DNA of 22,716 nucleotides, taken from a virus. Position numbers and translations under genes: made by a program. Position 1 is the stretch's first letter. Each line of letters begins with the position of its first letter. This document shows, one piece after another, positions 1 to 19,182 of the stretch. The stretch is from the IMG/VR virus record IMGVR_UViG_3300044615_000162, positions 1 to 22,716 of that record; one strand, 5' to 3'. The notes beneath the pieces were generated by a model. It searched no databases. It was given only the letters and a program-made list of their open reading frames with translations, and was not told where the DNA came from.

Positions 1-69
1 GGGGAAGGCAGAGGCGGTCCCGTTGCCAACGAACGGGCCGGCGATTCTCGTCGTGCTGCTGATGGTCAT
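1..69 (-). CDS. Tail fibre protein, N-terminal fragment (runs off window)
   Basis: Only the first 23 codons are present; the gene continues beyond position 1. The peptide begins MTISSTTRIAGPFVGNG and continues TASAFP. This matches the opening of many podovirus tail-fibre and tail-spike proteins, where an N-terminal virion-binding domain starts with a short 'STTR.AGPF.GNG....FPF' stretch. The ATG at 67-69 is preceded by an AAGAGG-type ribosome binding site about 10 bases upstream. An overlapping ATG eight bases upstream is out of frame and closes at once. Its place directly after the giant internal protein corresponds to T7 gene 17 after gene 16, which supports a fibre or spike that attaches to the tail and binds the host surface. 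The receptor-binding part is not in the window, so specificity cannot be judged. Confidence 0.8.
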   Translation of the reverse strand, partial: MTISSTTRIAGPFVGNGTASAFP

Positions 70-100: not shown

Positions 101-123
101 TCACGGGTACGGTTACGGGTACT
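101..123 (-). repeat. AGTACCCGTAA repeat, copy C, with a degenerate second unit
   Basis: The minus strand reads AGTACCCGTAA at 123-113, followed 12 bases further by a 9/11 match, CGTACCCGTGA (111-101). It overlaps the stop codon of the giant protein gene (122-124) and lies between that gene and the tail-fibre start at 69. It is one of three same-orientation copies in the window. The function is unknown; a promoter or other regulatory element is one possibility. Confidence 0.5.
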
Positions 124-3100
124 AACGCTGCACTCCGGTGAACGGCGCGACCACCGCGCCGACGCCCTCGACCTCGCCCTCGACCACCGCCTCGATCCCG
201 TCGATGGTGCGGTTGATCTGCGCCGCCGGCAGCCCGGTGAACGCGCCGAGCGTGTTGACCGCCGCACGGCGGAAGGCGCGGTCGAACTCAAGTTGCCCAG
301 CCTGAGCGGATAGGGTGTACACGTCTCCAATTGCCGCCAAGCCAGCGGGGCCACCGTAACCCATCCGCACGCCCTCCGCGCCCGTCAGGAGCTGCGCTGC
401 ACCGCCAAACTCGCGGGCGATCACCATCGTGCCCATCATGTACGACAGCTCCTCGGCGGCGAGCTTGCGTGCCAGTGCCTCGGGATCGAATTCCTCGTCA
501 TCCGTGTTCGGCTGAAGCAGGCTCTTGAGCGCATAGCCAAATACGACCGGGACCACGAAAAGCATCGCGTAGTCGGCGGCCAGCTTGCCCTTGCTGCGTG
601 CCGTCATCGTCTGCACGGCGGCCATGTTGTAGACCGTGTTCATGTACGAATAGAACACCGTGAACAGCTTCGTATATGGGCCTCCGCGCTCGACGGCCGA
701 AAGGTCAGAAACGAGGCCACTGCCCTGAGCATCACGCACAGACTGATCGGCGATGGATACGGCAACAGCATCGTACTTTCCGGCATCAAGCGCCTTTTGG
801 TACGCGCCGAGCCAGGTCGGGATGTCCACCGACCGCTGCATGTTCATCATCAGGAAATAGGTGCCAGCGAACACCCGCCGCGAAATCTCTGTCTGTCCGC
901 GTACACGGTTCTTGATCTCGTTGATCTCGCGGAACTGCGTTCGGCCGCGCTCGGCCATGAACTGGCTCTTGTCGGCCACCATCTTCGCCGAGTCGAACGG
1001 GCTGGTCACGAACTGCGTGATGCCCTGCCCGATGTACTTCGCTCCAACTCGCACGATGCTCTGATTGAAGCCGAGGATCTGGAGTGCCGCGCTGTTGATG
1101 TTGAAACCAAGGCGCGATGCACTGATGCCTTGCCTGATCCATGAAACAGCCGCCTCTCCCGCGACCTGCTGCCCGCGGCCCCCGGTCGCGTTGTCCTTCG
1201 TCCAGTCGCGCAGGTTCTTCAGGAACTCAGGACCGCGAGTCTCGCGCACGGCGTTGGCGAACTTGACGTCGCGCAGCAGGCGGTTCGTTGAGATGAGCCA
1301 TTCGTGCCACGCCAGGTCGTGGATCACGTCGTTCACCCCGCTGAATGCGGCGTCGAGCGTGTACAGGATCGGCCTGTCCACGACTTCCTTGGCGCGTGCC
1401 TTGACGAACGACCGCCGCGTGGTGGCTGCCGTATACGCGCCCTGGAGGTCGCGCTTGGCCTCCTCCGCGGCGTCCACGGTCGCCACGCGGTCGGATGCCA
1501 CGGGGTCGTACTTGATCGGGTAGTAGCCGCCCTGGAGGCTGACCTCCTTGCCGTCCGACGTGCGGACGGTGAACGGGACGGGCGTGACCCACTCCGGCTC
1601 CTTGCCGTAGAGCCTGCGCTCCTTGGCGGCGATCTCCGGGCGGTAACTATCGACGAAATCCCACATCTGCTGCACGGCCTGCCACTCGGCCTCGGTCAGG
1701 CTCTCGAGCACGGGCTGGACCTGCTCGAGCGTCCATCCCTCGCCGTCGAGCAGGCGCTGGCGGTTGCCGTCGTTTCCCATATTTGAGGCGATGGCGACTC
1801 GGGCCTCCCGGTTCAGGCTGCGCCCGATGGACGGGAAGTACATCCCCTTGCCACCCATTCCGCCGAGCGCAAACACGGGCTTCAGGATCTCGCCAAACTT
1901 CAACGATGATTCAGCACGCCGTCGCGTCTCAAAGTCAGCCGCTTCATTCGCCGTGCGGATGATGGCGTTCCAAAGCGGGCCGTCTTCCTTGCCGCCGTCG
2001 AGGACGCGAACGATGGACGCCGCCTTCAGGTGCTGGGCGGCGAACCCGCGCAGGAACGCGGCGGCGCGGCCGATCCCGGTCAGGGGCGTGCGCGGATCAA
2101 GGCTCAGGCCGCGGACCTTGCCGGAGGCACGGATGCGCGTGACCGCGTTGTCGCGCACTTCCTCAAACGCGGCACGCTCCTCGGCCAGACGCATATTCCG
2201 CTCGTTTTTGCCAACGTGCTCAATTTGCTTCACCGCGTCCACCAGGTCGCGGAACTCGCTGACCTTCATCTCGCGGTAGTTGACGCGGCGGGCTTCGTTG
2301 GCGATCTCCGGGGCGATGTCAGGCACCAGCCCGGCGGCCTCCTGCTCGGCCAGCCAGTCGGTCAGCGCCTTGCGCTCGTCCAGGCGCTTCAGGCTGACGG
2401 CGGCCACCTCGAAGCGGTCGAGGAGCCCGGCGACCTGGTCAGCCGCCTGCGCCCCCATGCGCTTGACGTTCTCGTCCCTGAGCACCCGCCGCAGGTACTT
2501 GACCTGCTTGTCCACCTCGGCCTTGACCCGGAGCGCCTCGGCGGCGAGCTGGTTCTGGTAGAGCTGGGCGCGCTTTGCCCGTATGCGGGCCTGCTCCGGG
2601 TCGGCCCCGTAGCGCGCCTTGATCTCCTCCGTGCGCTCCTGAGCCATCCTGGCGGCCTCCACGCTGGCCGTGGTGGCCTCGGCCACGGCGGTCGCCTCGT
2701 CGGCCCCCGCCGCGATCCGCTCGTTGTAGATCCGGGTATAGGCGGCGCGACCAACGGCCACGGCGTCCACGGGCGACCCGATGCGGGAGGCGTCCCGGGC
2801 GGCACGGGCCTCGGCGGCCACGAAGTCGCTCGGGCGCACGTCCCGGACCCGCTTGCCGGCGATCAGGTCGCGGGCGACCTGCTTGGCCGCGTCGACCATC
2901 ACCCGGGCAGGCTCGGTCGCCTTGGACAGGTAGCGCAGCTCGACGGCCACGAACCGCGCCCTGGCCTCGTTGTGGAGCGCCGCCTGCACCTCAACCTCGA
3001 TGGCCTCCGGGCTCGTCATGTCCCCGAACCGCCTGAGCATCTCGGCGTCCGTCCGCTCGGCCACGATCTCCTTCATGGGCCGCGCCGCGATCAGGGCGCG

Positions 3101-6100
3101 GATCATCTCGTCGCCGCTCGAGTAGCCGAACGTCTCGGCCACCAAATCCGGGTCGAGCCCATCCACGCCCATCATGCCGTTCTTGCCCGTCCCGAGCTTG
3201 GCGATGTCCGGGGCGATCACCGCCGGCATCGGCATCCCGGTCGCACGCACGGCCTTGAGCGAGGCGGCGGTCGGGACCGTCTCGTAGAGCTTCTTGACGC
3301 GCTTGGTGTCTAGGCGGTGCGGGCCATCGATGGCAACCTCAGCCCCATCGGCATCGATGAACTTCCCGGTGCGGAGGTAGGTCATCGCACGGTAGACGGG
3401 CTCGACCTTGACCTCGGCGGCGATCTCGACGGCGACTTCCTTGCGCCTGGCGTCGTGCTTCTTCTGCACCTCGCGCAGGACGCGGCTGCGTGCGTTCCCG
3501 AGCCACTGCATCTGCCGCATGCTGGCGACGTTCATGTCGATGACCGACGCCTCGATGGCCTCCTGCTGCATCTGCTGGTACGCGGCCCACTCTGCGTCCG
3601 ACATGCCGCTCTCGGCCTGCGTCTGGAACATCGGCTTCATCTCGTTGATGGCCGCCTGCCGTGCGATCTGCTCGTCCGTGGCGAGCATCCGGTCCATCAC
3701 CTGGCGCACCTCCCCGGTCAGGATCGGCAGGTCTTCCCCGAACTCCCGGCGGTAAATCGCGTTCAGGTCATCGCGGATCGAACGGTAGACGCGCTTGAGC
3801 CACGCGCTGAACCGCTCGAACAACCCCTGCATCTCGGCGCTCGGTGCCTTGCCCTCGAACAGGTAGACCTCGAACGAGTAGGCGAACTGCTCGTGCGCCT
3901 TGCGCTTCTGGTCGAGCGTCATGCCGTTCCACGTGGCGAGGCGCGCCTGCGGCGTGTCGCCGGCGATGCCTGCCCAGCGGAGCACTTCGTCCAGGTCGTT
4001 GACGATGCGCGCCGGGGCATCCGGCATCTGCGCGACCTGCTCGTAGAACGTGAGGAATGCGTGCGCCGACTCGTGCAGGAACGTCGAAAGGTCGGCGGTC
4101 TTGTTGAGGATCGTGGTCAGCCGGCGCGGGTCGAAGCCGCCGCGGGCGGGGCCTACTGCGGCCTGCTCGTATCGTCCTGCTTCTTCGAGGTACTGGGCAA
4201 CGAGGCGCGTGGCTTCGCGGCGGTAAGCATCAACACGCCGTCGCCCAGGAGCGCCTTGAGCTCGCCGCCCTTCATCTGCCGCACGGGCGGCTTCGTCTGG
4301 GATCCGGGTTTCATCGAGTGACCTCCATCCAGTGTCGTGCGTGATTTCAACAACGCGGCCATCGCCAGCAAGGGCATCCGAGATTGTACGCGCAAGTACA
4401 GCGCCATCGACCCCGGGGTTGAGACTAATAATCATCGAGTCTTCAACCGTGGCGTGCCCCTGAATGCCAAGCGGGAACAACTTGGTTTCGTACAGGTTTC
4501 CAATGTCTTCGACGGTCGTTCCGGGTTGGAGGCGCAGCACGACAATGTCGGCGGCCTCGGATCCCTGGAACTCGCTGGCCGACAGCGTGAACACCGCCTG
4601 CTGCGACAGCGCTTGGCCGACTGCTTGGGCGACTTGGCGCACCAGCGGGCCAGGCGGCATCTTCAGTGCGAAACCAACGTTGGTGCTCCCCTCCCAGCCG
4701 CCGACCTGCATGACCATGTCTGCCGCAATTCCGAACTCCTGCGTGATGTTCGGGATGATGTCTTCGGCAACGCGGACGCTGATCTCTTGCCGGAGCTGCG
4801 GAGTCAAGGACTCCCAACGACTGACGAGTTCCGTGTTTGCCGGATCTGGCGCCACCTCAAACATGACGGACGCGGCCGTTGGCTGCGCGACGAATCGCTT
4901 TGCCTGGGCATCCGCCGCAGTGCGTGATACGCCCTCATATCCGGCTCCAGGCTGCATGTCGGTCGGAAGCGCCACCCATGACGGCATTGTGATCCCGCCG
5001 GCACGCTGCATGACGTCTGCACGCGCCTCGTCTATTCCGATCTCGCCGTCGACATACCGCTTCCATGTCGCGGCTACCGGGGCTTTCAGGCCGCCCTTCA
5101 TCGCAGCTTCGAACATCCCGCGAATCGCCTCCCAGGTGATCGACTGCATCTCACGCGGCTCAATCCCACGAGCCTCGGCGGCGCGGCGATATGCCTCATA
5201 GAAGACCGCATATCCGCCACCGAGCCCGAACATCGCGTTTCCGACACCACCGCCCAGGCCGTGCGCCACGAGTTTGTCTGTGCCGGCAAGCGGCATCAGA
5301 TAGGCGGCGGCGATTGCGTGCGTGTCAATCGTCGCGAACCGTGGGTCCGCTGGGTTGAACAGGTTGTTGTAGAAATTCCTGACTTTGTGCTCTGCGCCGA
5401 TCAGGAAGTGCACGTTCTCGGCGCGGCCATCGACATACGCTGCAATCGCCTTGGCGACCTCGTTGTAACTGCCGTACCTGATGCTTGCCGGGATTCCTGC
5501 ATCGGTCAACATCGGCGACCCAACGCCACCCTCCGGGCTGATCACCGGGTACGTTCGGTCGTTCTTCGTCTGGTCGAACCAGCGCACCATGATCGCCGCG
5601 AGGAAGAAGTCACGGTCTTCGAGAAGCTTTGACAGCGTGCGATCACCAATCGCATCGATGTTTCTCTGAGCCTCGACAACCTTCGCGGACGCAGCATCCA
5701 GCAGGGCGGCGATCTCATCTCGCTCCTTCTGCCATTCTTCGGCGGCCTTCTTGCCACGCTTGGGCTTGGCGGCATCGTGCTTGTCAAGCTGGCCCTGCTT
5801 CTTCGTGACGTCCTTGCGAAGCGAAGACAGATAGGCGTCCCGCATCTCCGCATCCATCGCTGCGGAACTCTGGGTCGCGACGATGTCGATGATCCTGATG
5901 CCAAGTCCGACGTTCTCGTACCAGTTCTTCTGCGGGGACAAGACCGCAAATACTGTCGCCGCCTGCATCGGAGACATGCCGTGTCTCTCGGACAGCCAAT
6001 CAACGAGCCTCCTTCCGCCGACGTACCACATCCTGGCGCGGTCGCGGATTGCCGGATCCATCGCGTCGTGAAGCCACAGAAGATTGCTCTTCATGTGCTC

Positions 6101-9100
6101 GATGATCTGCTCAAGCTGCTGCTGCTCGGTTGCGCTTTCGTCGATTCGCACCGGAGCGTTCAACTCCTTGAACTTCGCAAGGTTCTTCGCAACGAACTTC
6201 TCGTCACGCAGGAACGCCGGGAAGTCTGCGAGCAACACATCGTTGAGCGCATCCTCGATTGGCTTCACCGCGGTCGGAACCCGCGTGGACATTGCGGCCT
6301 GCTCAAACAGCTTCGGGCTGGTGATGTCGAATCGGCGCGACAGCGGCACGACGTTGCCGGCATCGTCGCGGGTGACGGGGTCGGCGAGTTTGATCTTGTT
6401 CTCATTGAGGACAACAGTTGAAACAAATGTGCCCTCTACTGCATCTTTATCTTCGTCAAGCAGTTTGACGATGTCATACCCATCTACTGCGGCAGATTCC
6501 TGAATGTCTTTCCATCTTCGGCCACTCCATGTTCCTTCCCAGTCATACAGCCGTCCGCTCAATACGGCATCCTCTGGTGATACAGATTCACCAGTAGACC
6601 GATCAACGAAATCCCATTCTCCATCTTCCGCCCATTTGCGAATCCACGCTATTGCTTCGGGTGTTGGCTGAGTCAAATCAAGCGTTCGTCCACCAACATA
6701 GAAACGTCTTGCGCCACCTTCCTTGTTCGCATACTTGTCGGCAACGTCTTGATTTGTGGTCGTAAAGATTCCCGGTTCACGTCGTGCGCCACGTCGATAT
6801 TCCGTGATTTGCGCTGCGTTCCGATCTCCTCTCCACACAATTTCTGTAAGTCCACTTGCTCTCGCCGCCTCGTCCACCATCCGCTGCGCGGTCGCCATGT
6901 CGCCGCGCTCGACCGCCGCAAGATAATCGGCGTCGAGCGTGGCGGCCTGCTCAAGCGGCGATGATGGAGCAACGGGGATTCCTGCCAGATTCAGGACCGC
7001 GGATTCCTTGATGGCCTCGTACAGGTTCTGGCCGCGCTTCGGCGTGATCTTGAACAGCGGGATGTTTCCTGCCGCAAGGTTTGGATCATCCTTTGATCTG
7101 AACCGCAGCGTCCCATACGGAAACACGTATGCCTCGCCGCCGACAAGTTCGCCGGCCCACGTCCACCGACCTTCTTCCATTGCAGCAATGGAATCAACCA
7201 TCCCACTCCGAAGCCCTTCGCGCATGATGCTTTCGGAACGTTCGGCAGCCCCGGGACGAACGTCCTGATGAATCGCCAGCAGGTTCTTCACCGCATCGAA
7301 ATCCTCGCGACTCCATGTCTTCGGGTCGCGTGTCAGGATGTCAATGTCTCGCTGCATTGCGGCGTTGCTTGTCGTTGCTGGGATGCCGAGTTGACTTGCG
7401 CGAGTCTGCAATTGCGAACGAGCAGACTGCTCAAGCGGCGCTGCCGGCGCAGCCATGCCCTCGCCCTCGACGCGGACGGGGAAACGCTCGTACACCTGCT
7501 TCGGGGTCAGCCCCATCGACGCCGCCTGCGTCACGTAGAAGTCGCGCATGAACTGCGCGCTCGAGCGCGCCGCACGCTCGTCCATCTGCCCGGTCGCCTG
7601 GATCTGCGACGCCAGCGTGTCCTCGATCTCACGCGCCTCCTGCACGAAGGTGCCGCTCGCTGACTCCTTCTCGGTCAGGATGCGCTCGGCGTCCTTCACG
7701 ATCTCCTGCCGCCGCGCCTGGAACTCCTGCGCCTCGGTCAGGCTCATCGCGTCCGGGTCGAGCCGCATGTGCGGCAGCAGCGCGTTCCCGAGGTCCGTGT
7801 TCGCCAGCCGCGCCCCGAACCGCGCCGTCTGGATCGTCACGTCCCCGCCCGTGGCGACCGCCTCGTCCACCTGCGCCTTGATCCCGGGCAGCACCTCCTC
7901 GAGCTGCGCCGCCGTCAGGCCGCTCTGCGCGAACAGCTCTTGTGCCGTGCGCCCGTCCACGTAGATCGTCTCGGCGGGGCCGTCCTTTGCCTGCGCCTCG
8001 AGGAACCGCTCGTATGCCTCCGGGCTGCGCTTGGCGAGCCTGCTGTCCTTGCCGGCCGTGGCAAGCTTCTCAAAGAACACCTGCTGCCGCTCGGTGTTGG
8101 CCGCACGGCTCAGGTCTACGTACAGGTTCGCGCCCGGTCCGATGCCGCCCAGGATGGCCGACCCCATCGCGCCCTGCACGAAGGCGTCCACCACGCGCTC
8201 GGTGGCCTGCCGCAGGCCAGTCTCGCTGTCGATCCCGGACGCCGCCTTGGCGATCTCCTCGCCGGCGATGATGACCACCTCTTGGAGCGCCTCCTCGCTG
8301 GCCTCGGTCCCGACCTGGAGGATGTAGCCCTTCCCGGCCGCTGCGAGCGCAGCGCGGGTCGTGGGCTGCGCCACGGCCTTGGACACCGCCTCGGCCATGA
8401 AGCGCTTGGCAAGCGCCTGGAACGGCTTGGCGGCGATCTTCATGCCGACCACCTCGATCACGCCGTTCAGGAACCCGCCCGCCACGGACACCGGGATGGC
8501 AACGTCATCCTCGACGCCTTCCTCGCGCAGGTCGAGGTACAAGTTCCCGGCCTCCATCTGCCCGGTCGTGGCGACCACGCCTGCGGTCGCGCCGAGCGCG
8601 CCGCCGGCAATCGTGCCGAGGACGGGCATCGCGCTGCCGACCGCCGCGCCGCCGACCGTGAACGTGCCGATCCCTCGGATCTGTGCAAGGTTCTGTGCGA
8701 TGACCTCGGTGGTCGCGCCCAGGAACCCGACGTCCACCAGCTCGCGCATCCGGTCGCGGATCTTGGTCGCACGCTCAAAGTCCTCGGGCTGCGCCAGACC
8801 AGCCATTGCCCTGCCGCCGATCTCGCCGCGCTCGGCAACGAGCTGGCCACGCTCGAATCCGCGCCGCATTCCCGGGGTCATCCCGGTCACGTAGAACTGC
8901 ACGTAGTCCAGCATGAACGGCCGGATCGTCCCCAGCACGTCGATGTCATCGTGAGCCGTCTCCGCGAACTCCTTGTTGGCGAGGAAATTCGCCATGACCG
9001 GGTCGGTGCGGAGGAAGTCCTTTGAGCGCAGGTCGGATAGGTACGCCTGCTGCTCGGCCCGCTGCATGTCGGCACGGGCCACCTCGGCCGGGATGCCGAC

Positions 9101-9358
9101 CTTCCTGCCGACCTTGATGGCGCGTGCGGCCTCGTCCGGGTTGACGGCGCGTGCGCCGAGCACGGCGGCGTCGAGCGACTCCGTGTCCTTCTCCGCGATC
9201 TGCGCAGCCACCGGGTCGACGTCAGGCATTGCCATCGTCGGCTGCGAGGTCGGGATGGCCGCACGTGACGCGATCTCGGACGCAATCGGGTCTAGATCGT
9301 CCTGGACCTGCGAGGGCGAGAATCGTGCCATGCGCTCGTTGATGTCCGGCTCGATCAC
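122..9358 (-). CDS. Giant polyvalent internal/ejection protein (3078 aa) in the T7 gp16 position
   Basis: The start is GTG, overlapping the previous stop by four bases (GTGA), with AAGGG about 10 bases upstream; translation is probably coupled. By position this is the largest internal virion protein, which in T7-like phages is ejected into the host. Modules seen, in order: unclassified N-terminus with a Gly/Ala-rich membrane-like stretch (about 230-268); a domain at 645-804; an ADP-ribosyltransferase-like domain (805-1020, WRG at 842-844, GIFTTT at 863-868); an HhH-GPD-glycosylase-like domain (about 1092-1422); a VAPDP module (about 1497-1695); an HExxH metallopeptidase domain (HESAH at 1762-1766, possible third ligand E1830); then a long helical region ending in a hydrophobic segment near 2928-2947. 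EQ(A/S)A linkers follow the pattern of domain borders (Q644, Q804, Q1020, Q1732). No transglycosylase or RNA polymerase motif was recognised. The polyvalent-protein assignment is strong; individual activities are inferred from motifs. Confidence 0.85.
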   Translation of the reverse strand: MIEPDINERMARFSPSQVQDDLDPIASEIASRAAIPTSQPTMAMPDVDPVAAQIAEKDTESLDAAVLGARAVNPDEAARAIKVGRKVGIPAEVARADMQRAEQQAYLSDLRSKDFLRTDPVMANFLANKEFAETAHDDIDVLGTIRPFMLDYVQFYVTGMTPGMRRGFERGQLVAERGEIGGRAMAGLAQPEDFERATKIRDRMRELVDVGFLGATTEVIAQNLAQIRGIGTFTVGGAAVGSAMPVLGTIAGGALGATAGVVATTGQMEAGNLYLDLREEGVEDDVAIPVSVAGGFLNGVIEVVGMKIAAKPFQALAKRFMAEAVSKAVAQPTTRAALAAAGKGYILQVGTEASEEALQEVVIIAGEEIAKAASGIDSETGLRQATERVVDAFVQGAMGSAILGGIGPGANLYVDLSRAANTERQQVFFEKLATAGKDSRLAKRSPEAYERFLEAQAKDGPAETIYVDGRTAQELFAQSGLTAAQLEEVLPGIKAQVDEAVATGGDVTIQTARFGARLANTDLGNALLPHMRLDPDAMSLTEAQEFQARRQEIVKDAERILTEKESASGTFVQEAREIEDTLASQIQATGQMDERAARSSAQFMRDFYVTQAASMGLTPKQVYERFPVRVEGEGMAAPAAPLEQSARSQLQTRASQLGIPATTSNAAMQRDIDILTRDPKTWSREDFDAVKNLLAIHQDVRPGAAERSESIMREGLRSGMVDSIAAMEEGRWTWAGELVGGEAYVFPYGTLRFRSKDDPNLAAGNIPLFKITPKRGQNLYEAIKESAVLNLAGIPVAPSSPLEQAATLDADYLAAVERGDMATAQRMVDEAARASGLTEIVWRGDRNAAQITEYRRGARREPGIFTTTNQDVADKYANKEGGARRFYVGGRTLDLTQPTPEAIAWIRKWAEDGEWDFVDRSTGESVSPEDAVLSGRLYDWEGTWSGRRWKDIQESAAVDGYDIVKLLDEDKDAVEGTFVSTVVLNENKIKLADPVTRDDAGNVVPLSRRFDITSPKLFEQAAMSTRVPTAVKPIEDALNDVLLADFPAFLRDEKFVAKNLAKFKELNAPVRIDESATEQQQLEQIIEHMKSNLLWLHDAMDPAIRDRARMWYVGGRRLVDWLSERHGMSPMQAATVFAVLSPQKNWYENVGLGIRIIDIVATQSSAAMDAEMRDAYLSSLRKDVTKKQGQLDKHDAAKPKRGKKAAEEWQKERDEIAALLDAASAKVVEAQRNIDAIGDRTLSKLLEDRDFFLAAIMVRWFDQTKNDRTYPVISPEGGVGSPMLTDAGIPASIRYGSYNEVAKAIAAYVDGRAENVHFLIGAEHKVRNFYNNLFNPADPRFATIDTHAIAAAYLMPLAGTDKLVAHGLGGGVGNAMFGLGGGYAVFYEAYRRAAEARGIEPREMQSITWEAIRGMFEAAMKGGLKAPVAATWKRYVDGEIGIDEARADVMQRAGGITMPSWVALPTDMQPGAGYEGVSRTAADAQAKRFVAQPTAASVMFEVAPDPANTELVSRWESLTPQLRQEISVRVAEDIIPNITQEFGIAADMVMQVGGWEGSTNVGFALKMPPGPLVRQVAQAVGQALSQQAVFTLSASEFQGSEAADIVVLRLQPGTTVEDIGNLYETKLFPLGIQGHATVEDSMIISLNPGVDGAVLARTISDALAGDGRVVEITHDTGWRSLDETRIPDEAARAADEGRRAQGAPGRRRVDAYRREATRLVAQYLEEAGRYEQAAVGPARGGFDPRRLTTILNKTADLSTFLHESAHAFLTFYEQVAQMPDAPARIVNDLDEVLRWAGIAGDTPQARLATWNGMTLDQKRKAHEQFAYSFEVYLFEGKAPSAEMQGLFERFSAWLKRVYRSIRDDLNAIYRREFGEDLPILTGEVRQVMDRMLATDEQIARQAAINEMKPMFQTQAESGMSDAEWAAYQQMQQEAIEASVIDMNVASMRQMQWLGNARSRVLREVQKKHDARRKEVAVEIAAEVKVEPVYRAMTYLRTGKFIDADGAEVAIDGPHRLDTKRVKKLYETVPTAASLKAVRATGMPMPAVIAPDIAKLGTGKNGMMGVDGLDPDLVAETFGYSSGDEMIRALIAARPMKEIVAERTDAEMLRRFGDMTSPEAIEVEVQAALHNEARARFVAVELRYLSKATEPARVMVDAAKQVARDLIAGKRVRDVRPSDFVAAEARAARDASRIGSPVDAVAVGRAAYTRIYNERIAAGADEATAVAEATTASVEAARMAQERTEEIKARYGADPEQARIRAKRAQLYQNQLAAEALRVKAEVDKQVKYLRRVLRDENVKRMGAQAADQVAGLLDRFEVAAVSLKRLDERKALTDWLAEQEAAGLVPDIAPEIANEARRVNYREMKVSEFRDLVDAVKQIEHVGKNERNMRLAEERAAFEEVRDNAVTRIRASGKVRGLSLDPRTPLTGIGRAAAFLRGFAAQHLKAASIVRVLDGGKEDGPLWNAIIRTANEAADFETRRRAESSLKFGEILKPVFALGGMGGKGMYFPSIGRSLNREARVAIASNMGNDGNRQRLLDGEGWTLEQVQPVLESLTEAEWQAVQQMWDFVDSYRPEIAAKERRLYGKEPEWVTPVPFTVRTSDGKEVSLQGGYYPIKYDPVASDRVATVDAAEEAKRDLQGAYTAATTRRSFVKARAKEVVDRPILYTLDAAFSGVNDVIHDLAWHEWLISTNRLLRDVKFANAVRETRGPEFLKNLRDWTKDNATGGRGQQVAGEAAVSWIRQGISASRLGFNINSAALQILGFNQSIVRVGAKYIGQGITQFVTSPFDSAKMVADKSQFMAERGRTQFREINEIKNRVRGQTEISRRVFAGTYFLMMNMQRSVDIPTWLGAYQKALDAGKYDAVAVSIADQSVRDAQGSGLVSDLSAVERGGPYTKLFTVFYSYMNTVYNMAAVQTMTARSKGKLAADYAMLFVVPVVFGYALKSLLQPNTDDEEFDPEALARKLAAEELSYMMGTMVIAREFGGAAQLLTGAEGVRMGYGGPAGLAAIGDVYTLSAQAGQLEFDRAFRRAAVNTLGAFTGLPAAQINRTIDGIEAVVEGEVEGVGAVVAPFTGVQR
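3659..4162 (-). other. Domain: HExxH zinc metallopeptidase (zincin) of the polyvalent protein
   Basis: Residues about 1733-1900. The motif FLHESAHAFL places the zinc-binding histidines at H1762 and H1766 and the catalytic glutamate at E1763. A second block, FEVYLFEGKAPS, gives a candidate third ligand, E1830. The combination of 'LSTFLHESAH' with a downstream 'EGKAPS' block recurs in large phage polyvalent proteins. It could process the parent protein or cleave host targets after ejection; neither is shown by the sequence. Confidence 0.75.
4274..4870 (-). other. Domain: recurrent phage polyvalent-protein module (VAPDP module)
   Basis: Residues about 1497-1695, starting FEVAPDP (V1502 to P1506). 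A later block reads GGWEGSTNVGFAL, and the region ends with several beta-strand-like stretches. I recognise this pattern from other giant phage proteins but know no function. It sits between the glycosylase-like domain and the metallopeptidase domain. Confidence 0.4.
5093..6085 (-). other. Domain: HhH-GPD DNA-glycosylase-like module with a coiled-coil insertion
   Basis: Residues about 1092-1422. Three motifs appear in the order of endonuclease III/MutY enzymes: LSPQKNW (1140-1146, compare LSAQATD); GAEHKVRNFYNN with K1325 (compare the helix-hairpin-helix GVGRKTANVVLN and its catalytic Lys); and IDTHA with D1345 (compare VDTHI and its catalytic Asp). The Lys-Asp spacing is 20 residues, against 18 in E. 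coli endonuclease III. About 100 extra, strongly charged residues between the first two motifs look like a coiled-coil insertion. No iron-sulfur cysteine cluster follows. Activity is inferred only. Confidence 0.5.
6299..6946 (-). other. Domain: ADP-ribosyltransferase-like (ART) module of the polyvalent protein
   Basis: Residues 805-1020, bounded by two EQAA linkers. It opens with DADYLAAVERGDMATAQRMV, a lead-in common to phage ART-type polyvalent domains. Next come a first-strand motif WRG (R843), the block GIFTTTNQDVADKYA (863 onward) and a closing strand STVVLNENKIKL. The order fits an ART fold, but I cannot assign the catalytic triad with certainty. G+C over 6421-6780 is about 49% by hand count (176/360), far below neighbouring segments. 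Confidence 0.6.
6947..7426 (-). other. Domain: unassigned module between two EQ(A/S)A linkers
   Basis: Residues 645-804 of the giant protein. The segment includes IMREGLRSG followed by beta-strand-like GEAYVFPYGTLRFRS. This loosely resembles the entry of ART/2'-phosphotransferase-like folds ('I..EGL'), but the match is weak. Its boundaries are set by linkers at Q644 and Q804, which share 14 identical bases. Confidence 0.3.
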
Positions 9359-11127
9359 TTCGGCTTGCCCTTCCGGGTCCAGTATTCAAGGATCTGCGCC
9401 TCTGTCGGGGACGCGATGCCGGCGCGGACGAGCTGTTGCTCAGCCATGCGGTACTGAGCGATGGGCACTTCCTGCCCGCCGATGTCGTAGTACGCCTTCC
9501 CGAGCTCCTCCTGCGTCATCATGGCGACGGGGACTCGGCGGTCGCTCCAGAACCTGACGGCCACGTATGCCTCGTCGGTGATGGCCTTGCGGATGATGTT
9601 GCGCTTTTCGTCCGGGCTGATCTTTCCGCCGCGCTCGCGCTGCGCGACCTCGATTATCTGCTTGACGTTGTTTCTGAAGATGAGGCTCGCCTGCTTGTCC
9701 TTCGTGCCTTCCTTCGGGCTGACGTACCTGTCCATGCCCATGTCTACGAGCAGGCGGTTGATGTCATCCGCATCGACCTGTGCCTCGATGATCTTCTCGG
9801 GCTGGTTCATCTCCGACAGCAGCCTGACGTAGGTGCCTGGCGTCATCTTCGTGCGGTTGCGCTCGAGCCACTCGCGGGTGAGCATGGCCGGGTTGCGCGC
9901 CAGCTCCTCCTGCACGCCGATCTCGTCAGACTCGCGCTGCTGCGCGTAGAACGACTGTCGGTCCTTCGGGCTCAGTGCGGCCATCTGGCTCTCAAGCGCC
10001 GGCGGCAGGTTGAACATGGAGTTGCCCGGCACCGCCATGTGGTTCTCGTAGGCGTCGATCAGGGCGCGGTATTCCTGCGTCCTGAGCGCCTCGTCCTGCG
10101 CGTACTGCGTCCTGAGCTGCGACTGCACCGCCTTGCGGACGTCATCGTCCTTGATTGACTCGGCGCGCTCGAGCGCATCGCGCAGCGTGGCCGGCGGTTC
10201 GGCGCCCTCGGTCGCTTCCTGCCCATAGGTCTTAGGGTCGCTCTTGGCGTACAGCGTGCCCGTTTCCTTGATGCTTGCCGTGAGTTCGCCGATGACGGCG
10301 CGCTGCTGGTTGGTCATCACGCTCTCGCGCAGCGCCTGCGCCGCCCTGGCGTCGAGCATCTCCTTGGTGTCCGGGTCGGACAGGAACTCGTCGGCTGCGG
10401 CGTACTCGCCGTTGACGAGCATGGAATCCACGATGCCCTTCGCCATCCGGTCGTGGACCTTCTGCTCGAGCTGTTTCATCTGCGCCGAGTCCGGCGCGTA
10501 GCCCATGAGCTCGCCGGCCTTGCGGGCCTCGTCGACGGCCGTGTCTGCGTAGGCGGCGTACCGGAGCATCCCGACCGGGCGCCCGGCGGCGTCTTTCTCG
10601 TTGCGGCTTGCCCAGGCGAAGATGGCGTTGTCGGCGTTCACCTCGCTGCGTGCGATGGCCTCGTTCGTGTTCCAGACGCGCACCTGGCCGTTGCGGTGCT
10701 GCTGCATCCGGCTCTGAAACATCCCCATGTTCCGGGCGAGGATCGGGGCGAACATGGCCCGCTGCGTGTCGTTCTTCAGGGTGTCCATCGCGGACGCGCC
10801 GGCCTGCGACAACTCGCCCATCGCAGCCTCGAAGTCGCGCTCGGACTGCTGCCCGACCGTGCCGAGGAAGCGGTCGGCCACGCGCTGCATGGCCGTCGTG
10901 CCCATCACGTCGGCCTGCTTGGTCGTGGCATCGTCGATACCGTCCTGGATCGCGGAACCCAGCCGGAAGGCGGCGTTGCCAGCCCCGGTCATCGCCTGCC
11001 CAAAGCGGGCGAGCTGCGGCCCGGCGAGGTTCTCGGCGGCCTGCACGCCCGGCGCCTGGAACTGGCCGATGTCGCCCGGCGCCTGCGGCGCGACCTGCGG
11101 GACGAACGTGGTCGGTACGGTGGGCAT
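9355..11127 (-). CDS. Internal virion protein, T7 gp15-like (590 aa)
   Basis: A long hydrophilic, mostly alpha-helical protein with few glycines after the first 40 residues. It is rich in Glu, Arg, Gln and Ala, with no signal peptide and no clear membrane segment. The first 35 residues are Pro/Gln-rich and flexible. The ATG at 11127 lies three bases past the previous stop, with an AGAGGA site eight bases upstream. The stop overlaps the GTG of the giant protein. In T7, gp15 forms part of the internal core and of the ejected conduit. Here the role is assigned mainly from gene order (11-12-14-15-16-17) and composition, since sequence similarity to T7 gp15 itself is not evident by eye. Alternative: another internal head protein of unknown function. 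Confidence 0.65.
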   Translation of the reverse strand: MPTVPTTFVPQVAPQAPGDIGQFQAPGVQAAENLAGPQLARFGQAMTGAGNAAFRLGSAIQDGIDDATTKQADVMGTTAMQRVADRFLGTVGQQSERDFEAAMGELSQAGASAMDTLKNDTQRAMFAPILARNMGMFQSRMQQHRNGQVRVWNTNEAIARSEVNADNAIFAWASRNEKDAAGRPVGMLRYAAYADTAVDEARKAGELMGYAPDSAQMKQLEQKVHDRMAKGIVDSMLVNGEYAAADEFLSDPDTKEMLDARAAQALRESVMTNQQRAVIGELTASIKETGTLYAKSDPKTYGQEATEGAEPPATLRDALERAESIKDDDVRKAVQSQLRTQYAQDEALRTQEYRALIDAYENHMAVPGNSMFNLPPALESQMAALSPKDRQSFYAQQRESDEIGVQEELARNPAMLTREWLERNRTKMTPGTYVRLLSEMNQPEKIIEAQVDADDINRLLVDMGMDRYVSPKEGTKDKQASLIFRNNVKQIIEVAQRERGGKISPDEKRNIIRKAITDEAYVAVRFWSDRRVPVAMMTQEELGKAYYDIGGQEVPIAQYRMAEQQLVRAGIASPTEAQILEYWTRKGKPK

Positions 11128-11130
11128 TGG

Positions 11131-11847
11131 TCAGATCCTCTGCGTTCCCACGCCGGAGAGCAATTCCTCGATGCGTCGGTTCCTGGCCCACGTGGACCCG
11201 ATCTCGGTGGCGCTGCCGAGGAGGCTGGTGCCGAGGGCCATGCCGGGGTAGATCGTTCCTGCGGTCGCCTCGAGGTTCCGGGCCGAGATCCCGGCCATCG
11301 TGGCCTGCGCGCCGAGGTTCGTGGCGGCGAGGCGGGCGGCCTCCTGCTCGCGCACGGTGGCGGCGCTGATGCTCAGGCGGTCGATCTCGGCCATCAGGTC
11401 CATGCTGCCGATGATCTCGCGTGCAGAGCCTGCGCCGAGGACAGCCCCGCGTGCGGCCAGTGACGCCCGTGCGCCGGCCCGGGCCTGCCCGGCGCGCATT
11501 CCCATGATCCCGGCCCGCATGGCGCCCTCGCGGCCGACCTGCGCGGCGGTGAACTCAGCGCCCTGCCGGTTGATGCGGGCCATCTCGCCAGCAAACCGCT
11601 GGTTCTGCGCCTGCATCTTGAGGGCGTTCTTCTGGCTCTCGGCGGCGTAGTACGACCCGATGGCGCTCGACGCGGCCCCGAAGATCGAGACAATCGGCCC
11701 GGCGACGGTCATGCCCTCGGCGAAGGCCGGGGCGAAGCCCTGCATGAAGGTGCCGCCCGCCGGCGCGGCGCTGGTCAGCATGGTGCCGACCTCCCGCGTC
11801 TGGTACGGCATGTTGAGCATCCACTGCTGGGCCGGGGTCAGATTCAT
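11131..11847 (-). CDS. Internal virion protein, T7 gp14-like (238 aa)
   Basis: An Ala/Met/Gly-rich protein with a hydrophobic stretch near residues 45-70 (AGPIVSIFGAASSAIGSYY) followed by long Ala/Gln/Arg-rich helices. This is the usual look of gp14-type internal proteins, which in T7 insert in the outer membrane at the start of DNA ejection. T7 gp14 is about 196 residues, so this one is slightly longer. The start ATG lies one base after the nozzle gene stop; the ribosome binding site GGAGG is inside the last codons of that gene, so the two are translationally coupled. Position between nozzle and gp15-like genes agrees with the assignment. The identification rests on composition and synteny, not on a catalytic motif. 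Confidence 0.7.
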   Translation of the reverse strand: MNLTPAQQWMLNMPYQTREVGTMLTSAAPAGGTFMQGFAPAFAEGMTVAGPIVSIFGAASSAIGSYYAAESQKNALKMQAQNQRFAGEMARINRQGAEFTAAQVGREGAMRAGIMGMRAGQARAGARASLAARGAVLGAGSAREIIGSMDLMAEIDRLSISAATVREQEAARLAATNLGAQATMAGISARNLEATAGTIYPGMALGTSLLGSATEIGSTWARNRRIEELLSGVGTQRI

Positions 11848-11848
11848 G

Positions 11849-14800
11849 TCATCCTCCGATGGCGACCTCGAGCGTCAGCCCGACGATGGTCAGGGGCAGC
11901 GGGTCAGACTGCCGCACGAAGATCCGCCCGGCCTGCTGCCAGGACGGCGTCAGCTTCACGCCGATCTCGTCCGTCTTCAGGGCCGGCGGGCTGCCGTATG
12001 GCTCGGTCGTGCGCTGCTTGGCCTCCACGAGGTTGTCAAGGCTTGGGCCGATGAAGATGCCGCTTGAGCGGTACACGCGCAGGAACGCCTCGTTGATGTT
12101 CTTGGCGCGGCCCTGCCCGAATGCCTCCATCTGGAGCGTCATCGGCAGCGTCTCGAGGTCGCTGTCGTAGGGCAGGCCGACATGCACCACGGTCGATGCG
12201 CGCTGGAGAGCGACCGTCCCGGCCGTCACGACCTTCTGCGGCATCACGGCACCGTCCGCGAGGATGCTCACGGTCTTGCCCTCGAGGTGCCCGAGGCCCG
12301 AGATGGAGTCGCGTGCGAACGACCACCGCGTGGTCGCCACGCCGCGCAGGGCGGGCGCGATCACCTTGTCCACCTTGGCGGTCGCCACCGTGGTGCTCGA
12401 CGTGCCGAGGATCGTCAGGCGGTACTGCGTGCCGTCCGTGGCCGTGATGACGATGGCGTCGTTCACGTCCGTGGTCGCCGGGAACTGGAAGATCGCGGCG
12501 CTCGCCGTCACGGTCAGGACGTCGGCCGGACCCCAGGTCGAGCCGCCCGTCACCGTCACCGTGGTCGAGCCCGTGTTCGTGCCGTCGTAGCTCAGGCCGC
12601 TGTCCACGAAGAAGCAGTCCTCGATGTCGCCGACCAGCCGGCTCGCCATGCGCTCGACGTACCGCTTGGTCACGCCGCCAATGGTGCGCTTGACCACCAC
12701 GTACAGGCGGTCCTCGACGCCCTCGGCGACCGCCGTGCAGGACTCGAACGACCCGTCCGTGTCATGGCGGTGCCATGCGCCGATCTGCTGCTCGGGGATG
12801 TAGGTGAGGCCCAGCAGCCTGCCCGTGCTCGAGATGAACCACAGGAGCGGCTGCGGAGCCTTGCTGTAGCACATGTCCGAGATGTCGAAGTTGTCGAACA
12901 GGTGCGTGGCGCGCAGGCTCAGGTCGCCCGTCACGAATCCGCTGGCCTGCCACGAGTAGCCGAGCTCGCGCACGTGGCCGTCGCGGGCCGAGCAGTAGAC
13001 CACCGTGTTGTTGACGATGGACGGCTGGACGTTGTTGGCCCCGACGTATGCCTGCGGGCGCACGGAGATCGTGGTCGGGGTGATGACGTCGCTGTTGACC
13101 GGGGAGATTCGCCACTCTGCGGCGCTCGTCAGCGCGAGGAGCTGCGTGAGCGGCACCAAGTGGCGGATGGTGTTCGCCTCGCGGGCGGCCACGGTGAAGG
13201 AGATGCGGTCGGTGTCCTGCACCGGGATGTGGTAGGACATGTCGCTCTCGGTGCCCGTGCGGGTCATCCAGAGCGTCTGGGGCGCGAGCGTGGTCCCGGC
13301 GAAGACGCGGCGCTGCTCGAAGTAGCTGACCGCGCCGGGGAACTGGACCGCCGACAGGACCGCCGCACCGAACGTGGCGCTCGACCCGCCTGCCGCCGAG
13401 GTGACGGTGATGGTCGGGCTGGTGTAGTTGCGCCCGCCGTTCACGACCCGGATGGCGGTAATGACGCCGCCCTGGACGATGGGCTCGAGCACGGCCCCGG
13501 TCCCCGTGGTGTCGGTGACGCCGATGGTGACGCTGCCATAGACCAGCGGCGTGAGCGTCGGCAGGAGCCGTGCGCCGCTGCCGACCACAATTGGGGCGGG
13601 GAAGGCGCTGGTATCCGCACCGCCTACCGAGAAGGTCGGGTCGCTGTACAGGCTTCCGCCGGCCGTGACGGCCACCGCCGTGATGACGCCCGCCGACTCG
13701 GTCACGGTGAACGTGGCGCCGCTCCCGGTCGGGTCGGCCACGGTCACCGATTCGCCGCTGTCGTAGTCCGTGCCGCCGGCGATGACCGCCACCGTCTGAA
13801 ACGAACCGCCGCTCACCACCGTCGATCCGTAGCCCGAGCCGCCGTTTGTGACCGGGACCGAAAGGATCGCGCCCGGGACGAACGTCGTGTCCGCGATGGG
13901 CGGCGTGATCCCGAGGTTCGGGGCGATGTTGTTGTCCGTGAACGACAGCGACTGCGTCTGCCCGATGTACCCGTACAGGCCGCTCTGGCGCTTGTAGACG
14001 TTGTAGAGCGCCGCGCCAGCAGACGCCGCCCACGTGACCGTGTTGCTCGATCCTGGCGCGTTCAGGTTGTTCGTGACGCTCACCGCCGCGCTCGGTGCGC
14101 TCTCGTCGATCCCGTTGTCAGCGAAGGCCGTCACCACGTAGTACGAGTCCGAGTCGATGGTCTTCGCGCCGAACTGCACGAATCCGCCGCCCGACCACGC
14201 CGTGAACGAGGTCGTGTTCACCGGGACGCCGCTGTCGTATGCGCGCAGCGACAGCGTGTTCACGGCGGGCGTCGAGTTCACGGTGTAGAACCCGCGCACC
14301 TGGGTCATCGTGCCGCCGTCCACGTAGACCGGGTCATCGACCGCGAGGCCGTGGTTGCCGATGGTCGTGATGACGCCCGGGTTCGCCTGCGTGAATGCCG
14401 TGATGTTGAGCGCCTGCCCACGGTTGGCAGTCACCGCGACCGATGTCGGGGTGCTGACGGTCGGCACGAACGAGATCGTGGACAGCACCCACGTGGTCGC
14501 ACCCAGCCGGCGCAGCTCGCGGGGCGCGTAGTTGGGGTGGACGAGCGTCAGCACGTCCGCCGACTGCACGTAGTGGATGTCGAACAGGTCGGCCTCGGCG
14601 TAGGGATTCGGGATCTCGTAGATCCCCGCCGGGAGCGCGTACCAGTACGTGGCGTTCGGCGGTGCGTTGCCCGTGGTCGCCGCGATGCAGTAGTAGTTCA
14701 CGCCGCCCGAGGAGACGAGCGCGCCGACCGCATAGGCCGTGGCCCCGTTGTAGGCGGCAGGCGTGCCGGGGCCGAGCGTGGCGCCCTGCGTGTGGAAGCG

Positions 14801-15064
14801 GAAGTAGCCCGCGCCGAGCTCGAGCACCATCGTCTGCGTGGTGCTGAACGTGAACGGCAGCAGCCTGGTCTTCTTGGACGAGTCCTTGACCTCGCGCACG
14901 AACTGCGTGCCGGGGCGGTTCTCGACGGCGCCCTGCGGCAAGGCGATGAAGTTCCGCATCGTGGCCGCGCCCGTCTGGAAGCGGACGTCATCGATGCGCC
15001 CGAACATCTCCGGGCTGATCTCGCCTCCTCCGAATGAGCGGTGGTAGACGCGGGTCTGTGCCAT
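11849..15064 (-). CDS. Tail tubular protein B-like nozzle (1071 aa), with inserted beta-rich domains
   Basis: The N-terminus (SFGGGEISPEMFGR, then MRNFIALPQGAVENRPGT) is the standard opening of T7 gp12-like tail tubular proteins, and the C-terminal half is similar in style. T7 gp12 is about 794 residues, so this is enlarged. Visible extra modules: a chitin-binding/CBM-like segment (about 102-142, YAVGALVSSGGVNYYC followed by TYWY); a beta module near 235-295 with 'HGL..DDPVYV'; an Fn3-like segment near 310-370; and Gly-rich repeats (about 395-570) with recurring 'GG..Y' and 'TVT' units. It would form the tail nozzle below the adaptor. The ATG follows the adaptor stop by three bases; only a weak GGA site precedes it, so coupling to the upstream gene is likely. 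Confidence 0.87.
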   Translation of the reverse strand: MAQTRVYHRSFGGGEISPEMFGRIDDVRFQTGAATMRNFIALPQGAVENRPGTQFVREVKDSSKKTRLLPFTFSTTQTMVLELGAGYFRFHTQGATLGPGTPAAYNGATAYAVGALVSSGGVNYYCIAATTGNAPPNATYWYALPAGIYEIPNPYAEADLFDIHYVQSADVLTLVHPNYAPRELRRLGATTWVLSTISFVPTVSTPTSVAVTANRGQALNITAFTQANPGVITTIGNHGLAVDDPVYVDGGTMTQVRGFYTVNSTPAVNTLSLRAYDSGVPVNTTSFTAWSGGGFVQFGAKTIDSDSYYVVTAFADNGIDESAPSAAVSVTNNLNAPGSSNTVTWAASAGAALYNVYKRQSGLYGYIGQTQSLSFTDNNIAPNLGITPPIADTTFVPGAILSVPVTNGGSGYGSTVVSGGSFQTVAVIAGGTDYDSGESVTVADPTGSGATFTVTESAGVITAVAVTAGGSLYSDPTFSVGGADTSAFPAPIVVGSGARLLPTLTPLVYGSVTIGVTDTTGTGAVLEPIVQGGVITAIRVVNGGRNYTSPTITVTSAAGGSSATFGAAVLSAVQFPGAVSYFEQRRVFAGTTLAPQTLWMTRTGTESDMSYHIPVQDTDRISFTVAAREANTIRHLVPLTQLLALTSAAEWRISPVNSDVITPTTISVRPQAYVGANNVQPSIVNNTVVYCSARDGHVRELGYSWQASGFVTGDLSLRATHLFDNFDISDMCYSKAPQPLLWFISSTGRLLGLTYIPEQQIGAWHRHDTDGSFESCTAVAEGVEDRLYVVVKRTIGGVTKRYVERMASRLVGDIEDCFFVDSGLSYDGTNTGSTTVTVTGGSTWGPADVLTVTASAAIFQFPATTDVNDAIVITATDGTQYRLTILGTSSTTVATAKVDKVIAPALRGVATTRWSFARDSISGLGHLEGKTVSILADGAVMPQKVVTAGTVALQRASTVVHVGLPYDSDLETLPMTLQMEAFGQGRAKNINEAFLRVYRSSGIFIGPSLDNLVEAKQRTTEPYGSPPALKTDEIGVKLTPSWQQAGRIFVRQSDPLPLTIVGLTLEVAIGG

Positions 15065-15067
15065 CGG

Positions 15068-15748
15068 TCAGCGTCCAGAGATCCAGGGCGTGATGTGCTC
15101 GGGCTTCACGTCGCGCTGGCTGGCGTCTGACGCCTTCGCCTGCTGGATGTATCCAAGCGCCATCTGCATGCACTTGCGGCCCTCTGCGGCGCCCTCGGCG
15201 CCCTTCACGACCGGGCCTGCGAGCATCGACGCGAGGTGCCACGCGAGCGCGTTGGAGAACAGCGGGTCGAACTTGGTCGGGTCGGTGACGAGCGCCTGGT
15301 AGCGCAGGAGCGCGTTCTCCTGGTTGGTGTAGATCACCTTGTTCCCGGCCGTGTCCGTCTCGATCTGGTACTCCTGCGGGACGTAGGTTCCGCCGGCGAC
15401 GAACGGGGTGTTGATCCAGCCCCATCCGTAGCGGTCGGCCGGGTAGGCGCGCACCGCGTAATCGTTCTCTGCCTGCGGGGGCAGCACCGCCACGGCGGTC
15501 ATCATGTCGCCCGGGCAGGCGTATGCGTACTTCCACATCGTGTATGGCATCGTCACCTGCGCGAGGCTGACGCGCCGCGAGGCGAAGTTCCATGCGTGCA
15601 TCTGGAGCAGCGTGTCGCGTGCGATGGGGTAGAACCGCTGGCAGTGCTCTGCCTGCGCGGAGCCCTCCGGCGGGTCGATACTGGCGACTGTGGCATCGTC
15701 CCCCAGGTATGCGAGCGCGAGGTTGCAGATGTCTACGACGGATGGCAT
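15068..15748 (-). CDS. Tail tubular protein A-like adaptor (226 aa)
   Basis: The sequence opens VVDICNLALAYLGDDATVASIDPPEGS and continues with 'FYPIARDTLLQMHAWNFA.RR'. This is the hallmark of T7 gp11-like tail tubular A and related head-completion adaptors. Length is near the family norm (T7 gp11 is 196 residues). The protein should form the ring that joins the portal to the nozzle. The ATG at 15748 has an AAGGGAG site six bases upstream. It is the first gene after the GC hairpin and the first of the tail module, and runs almost directly into the nozzle gene. Confidence 0.88.
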   Translation of the reverse strand: MPSVVDICNLALAYLGDDATVASIDPPEGSAQAEHCQRFYPIARDTLLQMHAWNFASRRVSLAQVTMPYTMWKYAYACPGDMMTAVAVLPPQAENDYAVRAYPADRYGWGWINTPFVAGGTYVPQEYQIETDTAGNKVIYTNQENALLRYQALVTDPTKFDPLFSNALAWHLASMLAGPVVKGAEGAAEGRKCMQMALGYIQQAKASDASQRDVKPEHITPWISGR

Positions 15749-19180: not shown

Positions 19181-19182
19181 GT

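Follow-up and report, generated by a model that had tools for sequence, protein, structure and literature searches.

What does a virus do with a 3078-residue protein encoded in the gene slot that phage T7 gives to gp16, its largest ejected protein? The question is raised by a 22.7 kb IMG/VR virus record (IMGVR_UViG_3300044615_000162), the whole of which, 22,716 nucleotides, was analysed and is called the window here. Positions 122..9358 of its minus strand form a single uninterrupted open reading frame (ORF) of 3078 codons, which starts with GTG and has a 4-base overlap with the stop of the upstream gene; the product, P0001, is referred to as the giant. An earlier note on this DNA described the ORF correctly and read its product as a polyvalent effector protein that replaces gp16 and is delivered from the virion. 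We give an even chance to a more specific account, in which the giant would be an ejected, self-processing carrier with a metallopeptidase that cuts phi-x-Q sites and frees exchangeable effectors.

The giant matches phrog_9880 (Bbp10 of Bordetella phage BPP-1 and relatives) with an E value of 0, and is 46.8% identical to bbp10 of BPP-1 over residues 1736-3069. It contains homologs of both the N-core and the C-core of the Bbp10 family and, like the other members, is encoded between the slot-15 protein and the fibre genes. Judged by homology, it is the usual slot-16 protein of one podovirus group. When the last 878 residues were used as a tblastn query, 42 of 50,697 phage records matched, and in 25 of the 42 the match covered 80% of the query or more; the hosts are Bordetella (BPP-1 bbp10), Caulobacter, Xanthomonas, Pseudomonas, Vibrio, Cobetia and others. 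Relatives of the C-terminal part are also encoded on 138 viral contig stretches, of which the best 80 were retained, and at 19 loci in bacterial genomes. Bbp10-like genes L110-L128, in the genomes of Cupriavidus, Methylobacillus, Caballeronia, Pseudothauera and other bacteria, probably belong to prophages. The Carin-1 homolog, gp32, is a hypothetical protein in its record. In the literature (cited by PMC number, for the parts of each paper that were searched), region 700-1000 of Bbp10, which is homologous to the metallopeptidase region of the giant, served as a seed in a 2013 study of a zincin family (PMC3650047).

Anatomical counts cover complete ORFs of at least 1800 amino acids (aa) with identical proteins merged, which gave 53 loci and, with the window, 54 proteins. 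Both ends were mapped in 51 of these (L053 is without a mapped N-core end, L086 and L097 without a mapped cargo end). Blast comparison of the giant with its relatives shows a common N-core (approximately residues 1-645), a common metallopeptidase and C-core (approximately 1730-3078), and a middle that is often unalignable, even where the ends are more than 90% identical (e.g., L011 and L012). Most of the middle is common to the window and some relatives, such as L003, L004, L005 and L008. The N-core (residues 1-644, 7427..9358; all features of the giant lie on the minus strand) was compared in an alignment of 33 sequences (A4), with 18-99% identity to the window. The C-core (residues 1901-3078, 125..3658) was assigned by homology, and an alignment of the last 878 residues from 32 sequences (A5) has a mean column identity of 56% and 40 invariant columns. 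Between them lies the exchangeable cargo region (residues 645-1731, 4166..7426), delimited by blast and DNA comparison with relatives; the stretch equivalent to residues 625-1745 varies from 14 to 1211 residues, with a median of 743, in the 51 proteins. At the DNA level, a 7.9 kb match between L011 and the window, 95.5% identical, ends at residue 644-645; none follows until residue 1731, from where the two are 92.8% identical. L012 is collinear with the window to residue 832 and then, like L011, from 1731 onwards. In L014 and L015 the match breaks off at residue 557 and returns only at 1813, so that the front half of the metallopeptidase has been exchanged as well.

The DNA exchange points coincide with residues 641-645 (PLEQ-S) and 1730-1733 (YEQ-A), and thus with a short motif, phi-x-Q, in which phi is L, I, V, M, F, Y, W or A and which often takes the form (F/L)-x-Q-(A/G). 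Four candidate separator sites are found in the window (the slash marks the predicted cut). Site 1, PLEQ/S (Q644, 7424..7438), lies at the N-core/cargo junction and site 4, YEQ/A (Q1732, 4160..4174), at the cargo/metallopeptidase junction; both were located from the sequence and the DNA comparison and are exchange breakpoints. Site 2, PLEQ/A (Q804, 6944..6958), and site 3, LFEQ/A (Q1020, 6296..6310), are strict matches upstream and downstream of an ADP-ribosyltransferase (ART)-like module in the cargo.

The motif is enriched at both main junctions. It lies within 16 residues of the metallopeptidase start in 52 of the 54 proteins, with F or L at P3 in 42 and A or G at P1' in 38 of these 52. The linkers at this junction fall into 26 clusters without any common 5-mer; with each cluster represented by one protein, the motif is present in 25 of 26, against 7.9 in shuffled sequences (standard deviation [SD] 2.2, maximum 16, 2000 shuffles). 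The two misses are L047, in which ILEQ-A is present and the anchor is misplaced, and L096, which has VLN-A instead. Behind the N-core, phi-x-Q occurs within 24 residues in 48 of 53 proteins and in 19 of 20 clusters, against 10.8 after shuffling (SD 2.1, maximum 17, 2000 shuffles). Further sequences from outside this first set carry the motif before the metallopeptidase in 19 of 21 cases (shuffled 6.3, SD 2.1, maximum 14, 2000 shuffles), including 5/5 phage genomes, and in 14 of 16 when five loci with linker 8-mers common to the first set are removed; L115, L122 and L127, which have no metallopeptidase anchor, are excluded from this count. In Caulobacter phage SR18, LLAQ precedes GEQG.

A motif at exchange points could be nothing but a recombination joint, the short linkers being kept by DNA homology and descent and never cleaved. 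The breakpoints do coincide with phi-x-Q, since 32 of 90 collapsed alignment ends are at most 3 aa from a strict motif, against 4.7 at random (SD 2.1, maximum 14, 2000 trials), and in a close clade the same longer linkers reappear with different cargo around them (blast segments 799-839 and 993-1030; DITSPKLFEQAA). We nevertheless regard this explanation as unlikely, if far from negligible. Clusters that have no 5-mer in common keep phi-x-Q at the same place at either junction, and L090, which has almost no cargo, retains ALPQ-G. L096 carries the same changed word at both junctions, EVLN-S behind the N-core and EVLN-A before the metallopeptidase, as expected if one protease reads both. Protease sites in polyproteins have a hydrophobic residue two positions before a near-invariant Q, followed by a small residue, and sit in unconserved linkers at module borders. 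Cleavage is preferred because phi-x-Q resembles such a site, because a zincin-like domain is next to it, and because of the repeated word in L096. The two readings are compatible and can both be true. As a separate observation, near-identical linkers (e.g., window residues 797-844 and 993-1030) stand at differing positions in different cargos, as if they were portable joints.

The candidate protease is the zincin-like metallopeptidase that directly follows site 4 (approximately residues 1733-1900, 3659..4162), recognized from homology and the HExxH motif (HESAH, 1762-1766), with E1830 as candidate third ligand. HExxH is kept in 54/54 proteins. The strict pattern for the distal Glu, F..xFExY, is found in 35 of the 54, and the six misses shown are the variants NFEIY, NFEVY and NAEIY. 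The giant has the HExxH and the candidate distal Glu of zincin-like domains in polyvalent proteins; a Pfam scan of the stretch returned no metallopeptidase match. In all 23 proteins that could be classified at both ends, the type of the N-core end agrees with that of the metallopeptidase (A 6, B 11, C 2, D 2 and E 2). The metallopeptidase is of two types, HESAHAF and HELIH, among phages that are approximately 90-95% identical elsewhere (L014, L015 and others versus the window).

It is rather improbable, in our view, that the motif is cut by another protease, either of the host or the scaffold-linked phage protein labelled as one (P0007, bbp18 in BPP-1), or that it is a docking motif for a partner. 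P0007 matches phrog_458, 'protease', and the closeness of the site to the HExxH domain does not prove that the two act on each other. However, P0007 has no Pfam protease match, and the cryo-EM study of BPP-1, in which two main bands were identified, gives masses of the major capsid and cement proteins that are consistent with no cleavage (PMC3863775). Retention of HExxH in all 54 proteins, with types that match the N-core end in the 23 classified, also argues against a protease from elsewhere.

In the self-processing account, the N-core and C-core would be part of the particle or ejection machinery of a BPP-1-like podovirus and would hold between them a cassette of host-directed enzyme domains, swapped as a block between close relatives. 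Phi-x-Q, placed at the N-core/cargo and cargo/metallopeptidase junctions and at some domain borders in the cargo, would most likely be cut by the zincin-like domain behind the last junction, in the particle or after ejection. Cutting would free the effectors, which in the window may include an ART-like enzyme, DUF7178 and others.

Several findings weigh against this account. The post-N-core motif is absent in L069 and L086 and in L036, L038 and L047, which all three have P-S-Q there, and L096 scored as a match only through a chance ATQ; a cruder test of this junction, based on an unaligned anchor, did not reach significance (motif in 40 of 53 proteins; 15 of 21 clusters versus 11.6, SD 2.1). 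The 90 breakpoints cannot be treated as independent, and the start of the metallopeptidase would be a conserved edge in any case. So short a pattern also fits other places in the window, with 18 strict sites in all, and among 16 cargos 5 strict sites fall inside domains. At Pfam edges within these 16 cargos, a strict site is found within 45 residues at 11/22 and 10/22 edges, compared with 4.0 (SD 1.8, maximum 12) and 4.4 (SD 1.9, maximum 11) in 500 shuffles; this enrichment is small, does not exceed the range of the shuffles and is no more than suggestive. The patterns that define the end types were set after the sequences had been viewed, 27 proteins fit none of them, and in one protein the metallopeptidase is of type A and the N-core end could not be classified. 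Agreement of types fits a physical interplay of the two ends but could also reflect their transfer as a block, and L014 and L015 differ from the window over 557-1813 as a single block. The sequence behind the metallopeptidase is alignable, with F-Q-T in close relatives and A-Y-Q in many others (broad pattern in 36 of 54); a cut on the C-core side is therefore possible, and the domain may or may not stay with the C-core. No report of cleavage, packaging or ejection was found in the literature searched for any member of the family. In other phage groups (a further ten phages that encode large proteins and two in which the ART stands alone), a strict motif within 45 residues was found at 1 upstream edge and 2 downstream edges among 18 ART stretches, against 2.5 and 2.1 expected. 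A separator rule for all polyvalent proteins was rejected on this lack of excess, and the claim is restricted to the Bbp10 family. In L133 and L141 (Pseudomonas phages F116 and USP_25), FSR-like words flank the ART and may be another separator; there is no clear enrichment.

The relation to T7 is one of position. The gene order 11-12-14-15-X-17 given in the earlier note is right as a layout, with counterparts of bbp14 to bbp10 in order and a fibre-like gene next, and the giant follows slots 14 and 15 and precedes the fibre, as gp16 does. Queries with T7 gp14, gp15 and gp16 gave no phmmer match among the window, BPP-1 and Carin-1 proteins tested; the proteins in this layout are therefore BPP-1-like, not T7-like. 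The giant and gp16 have the gene slot and, likely, a role in ejection in common; they differ in that the giant has no detected homology to gp16, no transglycosylase, and host-directed enzyme domains. The absence of a transglycosylase domain (SLT) from the giant, also stated in the note, holds in the Pfam scan. We therefore consider it quite improbable that the giant is a gp16-like core protein with decorations, its N-core and C-core being remote gp16 homologs: the slot, the very large size and the hydrophobic stretches would fit, but gp16 finds no match, the profiles of both cores find no gp16 chain among PDB sequences, and SLT is missing. Of the proposed replacement of gp16, the position stands; an exchange of one protein for another does not, since this is the usual slot-16 protein of its group, with no detected relation to gp16. 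The giant would act in the place of gp16, if at all, by analogy.

Little credence is due to the proposal that the giant is an effector or lysis protein of late infection, synthesised inside the cell and left out of the particle. In its favour, 'lysis protein' is the annotation of three among four Caulobacter homologs and 'lysin' that of two homologs from cyanophages, the Antarctic phage homolog OANV1 gp16 (2986 residues) is called putatively lysis-related (PMC9239159), and no virion detection was found in the literature searched on the family. Against it, the giant comes after the nozzle and slot-14/15 genes in all six annotated relatives viewed, and DarB and DdrB of P1, polyvalent proteins of another phage group, are present in virions (PMC9024508).

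As a multidomain polyvalent protein in a late structural block, the giant is much as the note had described it. Several unrelated domains of the LPD, ART and PBECR kinds are present in it or in the cargos of relatives (in the giant, LPD22 and DUF7178 by Pfam and an ART by hidden Markov model [HMM]), and its gene lies in a late, virion-gene context. Polyvalent proteins as defined by Iyer et al. in 2017 (PMC5512222) likewise combine LPD, ART, PBECR and zincin domains in late phage proteins. The idea that they are injected was published before, and autoprocessing by the metallopeptidase was already suggested there (PMC5512222). A cleavage motif, an anatomy of fixed cores and swapped cargo, Bordetella and BPP-1 were not found in the searched parts of that paper. 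The fixed ends and swapped middle, with the junction motif, are the new part. The N4 virion RNA polymerase is another packaged giant with a metallopeptidase domain (PMC5512222), and great size and the metallopeptidase are common to it and the window protein; unlike it, the giant shows no match to an RNA polymerase family in Pfam. Homology and context back the reading 'polyvalent, probably delivered'. Overall, the observation in the note is partly confirmed and its first interpretation partly supported.

BPP-1 Bbp10 has the same slot, N-core, metallopeptidase and C-core as the window giant. They differ in cargo: Bbp10 carries one short stretch with a single PBECR1 nuclease-type module (179 aa), whereas the giant carries approximately 1087 aa with ART-like, DUF7178 and further modules. 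Polymorphic toxins and Rhs-type carriers have a constant delivery part, an exchangeable effector and self-processing, as proposed here for the giant. In contrast to them, the giant would belong to a phage particle, not a secretion system, and its cargo is internal, not C-terminal.

Cargo modules were surveyed by Pfam in 48 loci and the window (49 cargos; L069 and L090, with cargos below 100 aa, were excluded). ART-PolyVal was found in 25, DUF7178 in 10, PBECR1 in 4, PBECR5 in 3, and PBECR3, RadC and DUF3990 in 2 each; LPD3, GGDEF, LPD23, DUF6782, GP88, PFIN and MuF_C occur in one cargo each. An anti-defence identity of the cargo found no support, with no PADLOC match in any of the 49 at E 0.001. 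Some proteins carry several ARTs, with four in L132/L144 (Dolichospermum phage Dfl-JY45) and two matched stretches in L060. In the window, residues 645-803 form a module without an assigned family. The divergent ART-like module that follows (residues 835-993, 6380..6856) has no Pfam match and is recognized by an HMM of 29 relatives' modules, with a weak score (15.3 bits, i-E 1.1e-6 in a single-protein search).

DUF7178 (residues 1302-1414, 5117..5455; PF23802, E 3.1e-20) corresponds to the 'glycosylase-like' domain of the note, which is not confirmed. The assignment to HhH-GPD glycosylases rests on the placement of K1325 and D1345, invariant in 11/11 sequences and spaced 20 apart versus 18 in the K..D pair of EndoIII, a resemblance of motif only; neither profile nor fold comparison backed it. 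Hhalign found no match between DUF7178 (effective sequence number [Neff] 2) and eight EndoIII/MutY sequences. An AlphaFold model of residues 1018-1700 has no Foldseek match with E <= 0.001, and its VIA matches are almost all on the module at ~1490-1680. A second model of the DUF7178 region also gave no Foldseek match at this threshold, and its VIA rows are mostly on a long helical stretch (model residues 103-190), with no HhH-GPD chain in the rows shown. DUF7178 was found in 0/274 genomes of one class, which is uninformative because it was found in 0/14 controls too. The module at ~1490-1680 (4319..4891), delimited by predicted structure and structural matches, is similar in structure to the porter region of RND efflux pumps (6vkt_A as best match; Z 10.8, root-mean-square deviation [rmsd] 3.3, 159 aligned) and the phage SAM lyase 6znb (Z 8.4, rmsd 4.2, 111 aligned); this predicted likeness is one of fold only and shows no function. 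Of the domains in the earlier list, the ART (weakly) and the metallopeptidase hold and the glycosylase is unconfirmed; the structure prediction of segments that it proposed, carried out for parts of the cargo, gave the porter/SAM-lyase likeness and no glycosylase fold among the rows shown.

Two further features lie in the N-core. LPD22, large polyvalent protein associated domain 22, spans residues 67-145 (8924..9160; PF18834, E 1.2e-13). A glycine-rich hydrophobic stretch at approximately 228-312 (8423..8677), with limits set by eye and a hydropathy peak at 286-304, is a candidate membrane-active segment.

The neighbouring genes, also on the minus strand, agree with BPP-1: P0005, P0004, P0003, P0002 and the giant are, by homology, counterparts of bbp14, bbp13, bbp12, bbp11 and bbp10. 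They comprise the tail connector (gp11-like, 15068..15748; PHROG match), the tail nozzle (gp12-like, 1071 aa, 11849..15064; Pfam and PHROG), the slot-14 internal virion protein (238 aa, 11131..11847; phrog_418, E 8.8e-6) and the slot-15 protein (590 aa, 9355..11127). BPP-1 bbp11 (720 residues) contains an SLT transglycosylase (E 5.8e-15), and the same Pfam library detects none in the slot-15 protein of the window. The start of a fibre/spike-like gene (1..69) adjoins the giant gene and runs off the window; in L030, where more of this gene is present, it matches repeat and beta-helix families, and bbp9, annotated 'putative tail fiber', adjoins bbp10 in the same way. Head genes lie beyond the tail genes (Pfam capsid GP7, E 1.5e-124; Bbp16, E 6.5e-21; Head-tail_con, E 1.5e-186). 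In Pseudomonas phage AF the giant is annotated after internal virion A, internal virion B and structural lysozyme, all four with 'putative' or hypothetical labels; of the six viewed relatives, only BPP-1 and AF have genes explicitly named as internal virion proteins. The nozzle protein exceeds bbp13 (681 aa) in length, and its residues ~400-560, which match structural/baseplate families, are without an equivalent in bbp13. Plus-strand ORFs lie opposite assigned genes at 12182..15037 (951 codons) and 18985..21756 (923 codons).

A wider generalization can be offered tentatively, with somewhat less confidence than we have in the self-processing of the giant. The slot-16 protein of BPP-1-like podoviruses may be a general self-processing platform for effector delivery, in which separators (phi-x-Q followed by A, G or S, and VLN followed by S or A in at least one lineage) would be both protease sites and exchange joints, and the N-core end and metallopeptidase types would form a matched pair. 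If so, new effectors would slot in and be released without further adaptation. The present analysis turns a vague class, polyvalent and perhaps injected, into a precise test, with predicted cut sites and a candidate protease, and nature provides nearly identical phage pairs whose main difference is the cargo. If the self-processing account is true, these phages possess a modular protein-delivery device with effectors exchanged like cartridges, and the list of cargos would be a catalogue of phage actions on the cell in the first minutes of infection.

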